From assembly GCF_004216905.1 (NCBI RefSeq), contig NZ_SGXJ01000007.1, positions 248,001 to 312,000 of the forward strand: a DNA stretch of 64,000 nt. Reading direction: 5' to 3'. Below, piece after piece: positions 42,534 to 46,148 of this stretch. Position 1 is the stretch's first letter. Each line of letters opens with the position of its first letter. Below the pieces are notes generated by a model. The model ran no database searches. It was not told the DNA's origin and saw only the letters and a program-made list of their open reading frames with translations. The position numbers and the translations under genes were made by a program. The DNA is from Kribbella sp. VKM Ac-2569. Lineage in GTDB: Bacteria; Actinomycetota; Actinomycetes; Propionibacteriales; Kribbellaceae.

Positions 42534-44567
42534 GTGACATCGAACGGAGACTCGCCGGAGCAGCTGACGCTGCTGCGCGACACCGTTCGCAAGTCGCGTA
42601 CCAAGGAACCGGCCGAGATCACCACGACGTTGCCGGTGGCCCGGATCGCGGTCGATGTCTCGCTCCCGCACCTGGACCGGCCGTTCGACTACCTGGTGCC
42701 GGACGACCTGGCCGCGGCCGCCCAGCCCGGGGCGCGGGTGAAGGTGCGATTCGCCGGCAAGGACCTCGACGGGTTCGTGCTGGAGCGGCTCGACGAGTCG
42801 GACCATGACGGCAAGCTGGTTCGGCTCCGCAAGGTTGTTTCGCCCGAGCAGGTGCTGACGCCGGAGATCGCGGATCTCTGCCGCGCAGTCGCCGATCGGT
42901 ACGCCGGGGTGCTCGCGGACGTCACGCGGCTCGCGGTGCCGCCCCGGCACGCGAAGGTGGAGGGCGAGACACTCCGCTGCGATCAGCCCCCGCGTCCGCC
43001 GGTGTCGACGTCCCGCTCGGAGTGGTCGCCGTACCCTCCTGGTTTCCTGGACGCGGTTGCGCGGGGCGAGGCGCCGAGGGCGGTCTGGACCGCCGTGCCG
43101 GGGGCTGATTGGCCGCTCGCGTTCGCGCAGGCCGCGGCGGTTTGTGCCGCCTCGGGTCGCGGCGCGCTGTTGCTGGCGCCGGACGCGCGAGACCTGGAGC
43201 GGCTCGCCGCCGCCTGTGCTGAGGTGCTGGGGGAGTCCGGGTTCGTTGCGTTGTCCGCGGATCTGGGTCCGACGGCTCGCTATCGCGCCTTTCTGTCCGC
43301 GTTGCACGGGCGTGCGCGGGTCGTGATCGGGACGCGCGCGGCGGCGTTCGCTCCGGTGGCGGATCTCGGGCTGGTGGCGATGTGGGACGACGGCGACGAG
43401 TCGTACGCCGAGCCGCGGGCGCCGTACCCGAATGCCCGAGAAGTCCTGCTGCTACGGGCGTTCCGGCAGAAGTGCGCGGCGTTGCTCGGTGGGTACGCGC
43501 GGTCCGCGGAGGCGGCGGCATTGGTGGAGTCCGGGTTCGCCCACGAGCTGATCGCGGACCGGAAGGTGACGCGGGCGGCGGCGCCATCGGTGCACATTGC
43601 GGGGGAGTCGGACATCGATCTGGCGCGCGACCCGTCGGCGCGCGCGGCGCGGCTGCCCTCCCGGGCGTTCGAGATCGCTCGCGAGGGTCTGCGGACTGGG
43701 CCGGTGCTGGTGCAGGTGCCGCGGGCCGGGTACTTGCCGAGTTTGGTGTGCCAGACGTGCCGGGCGCCTTCGCGGTGCTCCACGTGTGGCGGGACATTGC
43801 GTCGTACCGGGGGATCCGGGCCGGCGAGCTGCAGCGTGTGCGGCCGGCCCGCGGCGGATCACCGGTGCCCGGAGTGCGGGGACACCCGGATGCGCGCGGC
43901 GATCATCGGCGCACGTCGTACGGCGGAAGAACTCGGGCGCGCGTTCCCCGGTGTCGTTGTCCGTACGTCGGGCGGGGACAACATGCTCGACGTCGTACCG
44001 GACGCGCCGGCGTTGATCGTCAGCACGCCGGGGGCCGAGCCGGTCGCCGCGGGTGGGTACAGCGCGGCGCTGCTCCTCGACACCTGGCTGATGCTCGCCC
44101 GCCCCGACCTCCGGGCCTCCGAAGAAGCGGTACGCCGTTGGTTCAACGCGGCCGCCCTGGTTCGTCCGGCAAGCTCCGGCGGGATGGTGATCCTGGTCGG
44201 CGACCCGTCGGCGCTGCCGCTGCAAGCGATCGTGCGGTGGAGCCCCGAGGGGTACGCCGCCCGCGAGATCGAGGAACGCCGTACCGCCCGCCTCGCCCCG
44301 GCCGCCAAACTCGCCGAACTCACCGGCCCGGCCGAATCCGTCAACGACCTCGTCACCCGCCTCCGCGACCTGATGCCACCGACCGCCGGCCTCGAGGTCC
44401 TCGGCCCGGTCGACCTCGACGACGAAACCGTCCGAGCCGTAGTTCGCACTCCCCGTGCGCACGGCACCACCCTCGTCCGCTCTCTCAAAGAAGCCCAATC
44501 GGCCCGCACCACAAAGAAGAACCCCGGCACAGTGCGAATCCAGGTAGACCCCCCGAGCTTCGGCTGA
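42534..44567 (+). CDS. priA: PriA-like primosomal protein lacking helicase motifs
   Basis: 677 residues. The N-terminal 3'-end-binding domain (LPVARIAVDVSLPHLDRPFDYL) and the eight-cysteine zinc region (CQTCRAPSRCSTC, then CSVCGR and CPECG) are kept. The ATPase motifs are not: the Walker A position reads AASGRGALLLAP, and the DEEH box is replaced by WDDGDESY. Actinobacterial PriA proteins are generally of this type, so it is probably a structural restart factor without helicase activity. The 3' end is C-rich. In many genomes it directly precedes def-fmt; here 11 kb lies between. Confidence 0.9.
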   Translation: MTSNGDSPEQLTLLRDTVRKSRTKEPAEITTTLPVARIAVDVSLPHLDRPFDYLVPDDLAAAAQPGARVKVRFAGKDLDGFVLERLDESDHDGKLVRLRKVVSPEQVLTPEIADLCRAVADRYAGVLADVTRLAVPPRHAKVEGETLRCDQPPRPPVSTSRSEWSPYPPGFLDAVARGEAPRAVWTAVPGADWPLAFAQAAAVCAASGRGALLLAPDARDLERLAAACAEVLGESGFVALSADLGPTARYRAFLSALHGRARVVIGTRAAAFAPVADLGLVAMWDDGDESYAEPRAPYPNAREVLLLRAFRQKCAALLGGYARSAEAAALVESGFAHELIADRKVTRAAAPSVHIAGESDIDLARDPSARAARLPSRAFEIAREGLRTGPVLVQVPRAGYLPSLVCQTCRAPSRCSTCGGTLRRTGGSGPASCSVCGRPAADHRCPECGDTRMRAAIIGARRTAEELGRAFPGVVVRTSGGDNMLDVVPDAPALIVSTPGAEPVAAGGYSAALLLDTWLMLARPDLRASEEAVRRWFNAAALVRPASSGGMVILVGDPSALPLQAIVRWSPEGYAAREIEERRTARLAPAAKLAELTGPAESVNDLVTRLRDLMPPTAGLEVLGPVDLDDETVRAVVRTPRAHGTTLVRSLKEAQSARTTKKNPGTVRIQVDPPSFG

Positions 44568-44795
44568 CCCGCCGCGCGTCGGTCGCGGCCAGGAATTGGT
44601 GCCGCAAACAGGAACTGGTGGCGCGACACAGGTCATTCGGCTTTTTGGAGGCGTGGGTCGGCTGGGCTGCGGACCGTGTGACAGGTCTGGTGGGCTCGCA
44701 CCTGATATTCGCTGTCCGCAGCACCCGGAAGGTGTCTCTTCCCCGGCAACCGGCTGACCGCGCTTACGGGTAGCCGCAGTCCGCCGGAACTGCAT

Positions 44796-44884
44796 CTCGA
44801 CAGTACGTATACGTCTGCTACCCGCCACCCCGCACCGGGCAGTAGTCCGGATCGCCGGTCAGTGGACGTATACGTACTGTCGAC
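44796..44884. repeat. 19-bp perfect inverted repeat spanning 87 bp
   Basis: Left arm TCGACAGTACGTATACGTC begins at 44797; its exact reverse complement ends at 44883. The core ACGTATACGT is itself a perfect palindrome, so each arm could also be a binding site. The 49-base centre has ccgg-atcg-ccgg. No flanking target duplication was seen. Either a MITE-like remnant, a paired regulator site or a structured RNA. Confidence 0.85.
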
Positions 44885-45063
44885 CTCTCGCAGAAATCCG
44901 CAGCACAGCCGCCCGAGCCCTGACCCGGCGCACGCACGCCCAAGGCCCGGGCCGGTGACGTCGGCGGGGCGACCGGGGACGCTGGCTGTGACTTCAGGTG
45001 GGTAGCAGTCCCCAGTTCCCAGACCTGGCGGCCCTCGGGGTGGGATGGGGATGGTGGTTGGTA

Positions 45064-45098
45064 GGAGGGTTTTCCTGTGATGACGCCAGAAACCCTCC
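45064..45098. terminator. Hairpin past the ArsR-family gene
   Basis: ggagggttt (45064-45072) and aaaccctcc (45090-45098) pair perfectly over 9 bp. On the minus strand it lies about 60 bases beyond the regulator stop. A second palindrome, gccagcc-g-ggctggc, is at 45126-45140. Confidence 0.6.
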
Positions 45099-45158
45099 AG
45101 TGAGGTGCTGGAAACTCTCCACCATGCCAGCCGGGCTGGCGAGCCGGAGTCGAAGCGA

Positions 45159-46148
45159 TCAGGCGGAGGTGGCCAGGGGCGTTGCGGCGGCGAGCAACTG
45201 GTGGCCCAGCGAGGTGCGGTAGTAGAGGACGGTGCGGCCGTCGCGGCGGGACGTCACTACGCCGGCGTTGCGGAGGATGCTGAGGTGGACGCTGAGGGTG
45301 GGGGCCGTGACGCCTAGCTGGTGGGCGAGATGCGTTGTGGACATGGGCAGATCGAGGTGGCTGACGATCGCGGCTCTCGTGCGGCCGACCAGGTCCGCGA
45401 GTGGGGAGTCCGTGGTGTCCTGACGGTCCTCCCACAAGCGGCCGAGGCCGCGCGGCGGGTACGTGATGGTCGGCACGTGCGGCGCGCCGGTGACGGCCAG
45501 CCCGGCCGGCCAGGTGAATACGCAGGGCACCAGCAGCAGGCCCTGTCCGGCCATTGGTTCGCCGTCGCAGCAGAACGGCCGGTCGATCTCGATGCGGTCG
45601 CCGGCGTACTTGATCGAGGGATGCAGGTTGCGGAACAGCCGCTCGATGCCGCCGCTCGCCAGCTCGTCCAGCCGGAACGCGAGATCCTCCTGCAGCAGCG
45701 ACCGCATCCGCCGCCAGTCGGGTTCGATCGCCCGTCGCCAGTACGTCTCGAGCGCCGAGGTGATCAGGTCGAGCGCCTTCGCCGGATGCGCGATCAGCTC
45801 GGGGAGCATCGGGTCCGGGGTGTCCCTGTGCAGCTTCGCGAGCTCGTCGGCCACGAGTTCGTGCGGCGTGGCGGCGATCGCGGCGAGGCCCGACTCCAGG
45901 CTGGTCGACCGGCGCGGCGGCGCCGGCGTCAGGAAGTCCGGGATATAGCCGTACGACGGAATGAGGGCCCTGAGCAACGTCAGGTCGTCGCCCTCGATCG
46001 TCGGCCGGACCTTCTGCAGCCACGGCCCGTGCACGCTGCGCGCGGTGTTGTTGCTCAGCGCCCGCACACTCGTCACGGCTTCCCATACCGGCGACAGCGC
46101 GAACCGGATCCGCCCGATGTCCCCGGCGTTCAGCCTGATCGTGATCAC
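45159..46148 (-). CDS. ArsR-type HTH regulator with DUF5937-like N-terminal domain
   Basis: 329 residues. The C-terminal 80 residues are an ArsR winged helix (STTHLAHQLGVTAPTLSVHLSILRNAG, then SRRDGRTVLYYRTS wing). No metal-binding CxC motif is visible. The N-terminal 220 residues (starting ITIRLNAGDIGRIRFALSP) are shared by a large actinobacterial group and probably bind a ligand. It is divergent from the MFS gene at 46212 with a 20-bp dyad between, so it likely represses that transporter and itself. The start is GTG. Confidence 0.83.
   Translation of the reverse strand: MITIRLNAGDIGRIRFALSPVWEAVTSVRALSNNTARSVHGPWLQKVRPTIEGDDLTLLRALIPSYGYIPDFLTPAPPRRSTSLESGLAAIAATPHELVADELAKLHRDTPDPMLPELIAHPAKALDLITSALETYWRRAIEPDWRRMRSLLQEDLAFRLDELASGGIERLFRNLHPSIKYAGDRIEIDRPFCCDGEPMAGQGLLLVPCVFTWPAGLAVTGAPHVPTITYPPRGLGRLWEDRQDTTDSPLADLVGRTRAAIVSHLDLPMSTTHLAHQLGVTAPTLSVHLSILRNAGVVTSRRDGRTVLYYRTSLGHQLLAAATPLATSA

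Follow-up and report, generated by a model that had tools for sequence, protein, structure and literature searches.

A dispersed inverted-repeat element of Kribbella associated with a gene for a predicted nuclease

An inverted repeat in a gene-free interval

What is a perfect 19-bp inverted repeat doing between two convergent genes of Kribbella sp. VKM Ac-2569? To address this question, we first examined the repeat within the analysed stretch of 64,000 nucleotides (hereafter the window). The initial annotation had reported the repeat in a gene-free interval with no expected gene or promoter, and had proposed a MITE remnant, a protein-bound nucleoid or partition site, or a structured RNA of about 90 nt. 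The observation itself was confirmed. The left arm (44797-44815, + strand, TCGACAGTACGTATACGTC) and the right arm (44865-44883, - strand) are perfect reverse complements, each with the palindromic core ACGTATACGT, and are separated by a centre of 49 bp (44816-44864). This is the only perfect 19-bp inverted repeat within 120 bp in the window, and 12 Markov simulations of the window gave none of 16 bp or longer. The interval (44568-45158) is bordered by a priA-like gene (42534-44567, + strand, Pfam PriA_3primeBD) and by a gene encoding an HTH_20/ArsR-type regulator with DUF5937 (45159-46148, - strand), pointing at each other. The repeat is part of a unit of about 97 bp (about 44791-44887) comprising a TGCA-type outer end, the arm, the variable centre and the inverted arm, while the right outer end is degenerate (CCTCTCGCA), as shown by alignment with the copy of a near relative (genome G029) and with other copies.

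We then compared the site with its orthologues in other Kribbella genomes. A 595-bp block (44566-45160) containing the doublet is present in this genome (G000) and entirely in G029, but is absent from the close relative G024, whose flanks are 93-95% identical and where the two genes abut at the junction 44565|45161. Similarly short spacing was seen in genomes G017, G020, G005, G035 and G007. The site is variable, as the gap between priA and the regulator gene ranges from overlap of the genes to more than 1 kb and holds whole extra genes in some species (a hydrolase-like gene in G013, a phosphotransferase-like gene in G022). The block also contains a larger dispersed repeat around the doublet (44608-45038), found in part or whole in G000, G017, G022, G024 and G029. 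It surrounds the doublet here and in about a dozen copies in G022, G017, G024 and G029, and its ends may carry short inverted GGAACTGG motifs. A second dispersed repeat (45047-45147, GGAGGGTTTTCCTG...CTGGAAACTCTCCACCA), also with inverted ends, has copies in G000, G024, G029 and G032, often near the first one.

A dispersed doublet of constant length

To assess the distribution of the repeat, the arm was searched with up to 3 mismatches. The 8.4-Mb genome contains about 10 arm copies, with 13 matches against 0 for the reversed pattern. The records carrying the arm are almost all Kribbella. Single exact 18-mers in Palleronia and in two metagenome-derived Firmicutes genomes were set aside as chance or unexplained, and a single exact arm match in a viral contig (IMG/VR, position 6429) had no second arm in the scan. 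Among 38 Kribbella genomes, 19 carry the arm, with 1 to 66 hits. Copies form doublets of about 95 bp: in 144 oriented sequences (both orientations of a symmetric doublet counted), the distance between CGACAG and CTGTCG is 78 or 79 in 137, although the centre is hardly conserved. Two forms exist, a symmetric one with the same arm at both ends, as in the window, and an asymmetric one with GCAGCTCGACAGTACGTATACGTC at one end and GCAGCTCGACAGGAGGTGTC at the other.

These data bear on the three proposals of the initial annotation, whose interpretation was only partly supported. The MITE remnant is the nearest, since the repeat is a dispersed, non-coding, palindromic, mobile unit, but no copy pair enclosing a conventional transposase was seen. 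A nucleoid or partition site does not fit copy numbers of 0 to 66 among congeners, or arm variants specific to individual genes (see below). The structured RNA is not supported either. The perfectly symmetric sequence folds well as single-stranded DNA (z -4.8), but no Rfam match was obtained at E<=1, and an analysis of 28 asymmetric elements as RNA gave covariation signal only near the outer arm ends, with no consistent compensatory change in the middle. We therefore consider the last two readings very unlikely. Absence from close relatives had been named as part of a refuting condition, but this criterion is misleading, because patchy presence is what a mobile element predicts.

Association with AbiEi/DUF559 genes

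We next sought genes associated with the repeat. In four species, two asymmetric elements lie 1016 bp apart as direct repeats and enclose a gene encoding a 302-residue protein, in which an AbiEi-like winged helix is fused to a DUF559/MTES_1575 (Vsr-like) nuclease domain. The N-terminal half matches AbiEi models, and Pfam DUF559 was above cut-off for three genes, L066 (at this locus), L104 and L105. The neighbouring genes at the L066 locus encode a GntR-type regulator and a helicase. Residues E201, D232, H250 and D259, corresponding to the catalytic residues of Vsr-like/EDxHD nucleases, are invariant in 17 diverse members, and the gene is under purifying selection (dN/dS 0.11-0.20). An AlphaFold model built from three sequences was poor (pLDDT 50), too poor for fold searches, and the best PDB sequence match was a weak one to an endonuclease-like protein (3hrl, E 0.09). 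No relative of the protein was found in viral contigs and plasmids. At the same GntR-helicase locus, this genome has one element and no gene, while the gene is frameshifted in G029. Kribbella genomes with the orthologous gene carry more arm copies (p 9e-5), although orthologous loci are not independent, making our p-values optimistic. In addition, genome G016 has the orthologue but no arm hit, and eight genomes have arm copies without the orthologue. In K. soli, the element flanking the gene has the G variant (CGACAGGAC) but most dispersed copies have T, suggesting that the nuclease gene may have been replaced.

A search for the GCAGCTCGACAG arm alone gave no flanking elements for the DUF559 genes of G000. 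However, reading the flanks of the close homologues in Kribbella, those of G000 included, revealed doublets at every one of them, with an arm sequence that differs from gene to gene. With a fixed scoring rule, an inverted repeat was present on both flanks of 19 of 32 genes and on at least one flank of 31 of 32, against 0 and 23 of 139 control genes, respectively. Arm similarity follows protein similarity (Mantel 0.52, p 0.0005). Three remote DUF559 homologues of this genome (L106, L108, L109) have no such flanks. A third AbiEi/DUF559 gene of this genome, L105 (contig C3, 1121404-1122264), has a strong 64-bp doublet (CAGGCAGGCAGAACCCCC) behind its stop codon and an unlike palindromic stretch upstream. 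Across the class, 23 of 29 homologues have a doublet-like inverted repeat on at least one side, 10 of them on both.

If the gene serves the repeat, other homologues should have dispersed repeats of their own. The homologue of this genome at position 281032 of contig C6 is flanked by CCAGGCCATCACAATTG doublets, and its arm has 38 hits in the genome and none for the reversed control, mostly in pairs at 56-57 bp, with 69-71 bp from arm end to arm end. A third arm, CGACAGGAGGTAGT (gene L103), gave a weaker result, with 16 hits against 7 in the control. In G091, a genome from a genus of another family, the arm read from the flanks of the gene also has 38 hits, mostly in pairs at fixed spacing, with none in the reversed control and none in four genomes of related genera. 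Two complete doublets of the G091 family lie in tandem 35 bp apart (contig C24, 23003-23212).

At orthologous sites of sister species, two doublets of the G000 family associated with the contig C6 gene are cleanly missing in G024 and one in G029, so the doublet is a mobile unit. No clear target-site duplication was seen at these three empty sites, whose flanks have diverged. Copies lie mostly 3-10 bp behind stop codons and are enriched between convergent genes (34 of 58 against 59 of 337 background pairs), as described for REPs (PMC3733652). The doublets could be operators or terminators. AbiEi-type antitoxins bind inverted repeats in their own promoters, and the doublets sit next to the start codon of the gene, so the upstream doublet would be an autoregulatory operator, while copies behind stop codons would be kept because they terminate transcription in both directions. 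This does not explain the downstream copy, arms that are specific to each gene and dispersed only in that genome, or clean gain at orthologous sites. We consider it unlikely as the main explanation, but it may be true in addition to the one below.

Alternatively, the elements could be MITEs of a conventional transposon whose autonomous copy was lost, the nuclease gene being a passenger repeatedly caught between two copies. The terminal inverted repeats, the patchy distribution, gain as a unit and the larger repeat around some copies would agree with this. However, the same gene family is caught with a different element family each time, in Kribbella and in other genera, and arm and protein co-vary. 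Among the 55 loci of 8 kb scanned, which did not amount to any complete copy-rich genome, no autonomous transposon with the same ends was seen, nor copies at transposon-like spacing except those around the nuclease gene. This reading also appears unlikely.

A proposed REPIN-like population and its closest parallels

The best explanation, which we hold with fair confidence, is that the inverted repeat is one copy of a dispersed, mobile palindromic doublet that works like a REPIN, served by a Vsr-like nuclease, of a type not known to move repeats, instead of a RAYT. Our analysis establishes the dispersal of the arm in units of constant length with variable centres, the gain of doublets as units at orthologous sites next to stop codons, their presence on both sides of the AbiEi/DUF559 gene, the specific arm sequence of each such gene, and the dispersal of those arms in the same genome in the cases tested. 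The mechanism is inferred, in the absence of direct evidence that the protein binds or cuts the arms: the winged helix would recognise the cognate arms, a nuclease dimer would bridge two arms at their fixed spacing, and cleavage followed by copying or repair would spread the doublet, while the gene itself would be inherited mostly vertically. This explanation leaves the mobility of the larger repeat around the window copy unexplained. The window copy is most likely an orphan and probably a relic, since its cognate gene is missing from this genome.

A broader reading, which we consider somewhat more likely than not, is that a second, independently evolved class of REPIN-like replicators exists across the actinobacteria, in which a domesticated winged-helix and Vsr-like nuclease, unrelated to any known transposase, maintains and spreads a gene-specific population of doublets by a copying mechanism not yet described. 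REPINs are the best known case of a replicating sequence population maintained by a single domesticated transposase, and which enzyme serves other tagged REPs is an open question (PMC3733652). A parallel system with an unrelated nuclease would show that the arrangement arose more than once, would suggest a function for a common AbiEi/DUF559 family now listed as toxin-antitoxin or unknown, and would supply many natural enzyme/site pairs with different specificities. In the open-access literature, leaving aside subscription papers and preprints, we found no paper joining DUF559 with inverted repeats or with AbiEi, or REPIN and RAYT with actinobacteria, and the only paper on REPIN, RAYT and endonucleases concerns HuH enzymes.

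The protein shares its kind of catalytic residues with EDxHD (Vsr-like) homing endonucleases such as I-Bth0305I, and would share their gene-specific site recognition, which is inferred here. These enzymes dimerise on sites of nearly 60 bp (PMC3943268), which makes the inferred bridging plausible but does not show it. Unlike them, the predicted nuclease is free-standing, not in an intron or intein, is associated with dispersed doublets and carries an N-terminal AbiEi-like helix. Compared with AbiEi antitoxins of type IV toxin-antitoxin systems, which its N-terminal half resembles, it is fused to a nuclease domain, and its neighbours at the L066 locus, the only one at which they were read, are the genes for the GntR-type regulator and the helicase. 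CGTC-tagged REPs are likewise dispersed palindromic dimers between convergent or codirectional genes, with no known dedicated transposase or partner gene, but were described mostly from alpha-Proteobacteria (PMC3733652).

The closest parallel is with REPIN/RAYT systems, or REPtrons (PMC3116915, PMC2817692, PMC3733652). In both, short doublets of two inverted conserved arms with a spacer are dispersed outside genes, close behind their 3' ends, the whole doublet being the mobile unit. In both, a chromosomal gene is flanked by its own repeat type and several gene/repeat pairs occur in one genome. The Kribbella elements work like such a system but are not classified as one here, because the defining Y1 (HuH) tyrosine transposase (PF01797) was found in none of ten Kribbella genomes, while control genomes were positive. 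Their arms are not shown to be REPs, a REP being a hairpin with a GTAG or CGTC tag; they hold a short palindrome (ACGTATACGT, CAATTG) without an established looped hairpin, and TAGT/GTAG-like letters in some families only. Finally, the Kribbella gene is flanked by whole doublets in direct orientation, and its product is an AbiEi winged helix fused to a DUF559/Vsr-like nuclease domain rather than a RAYT.
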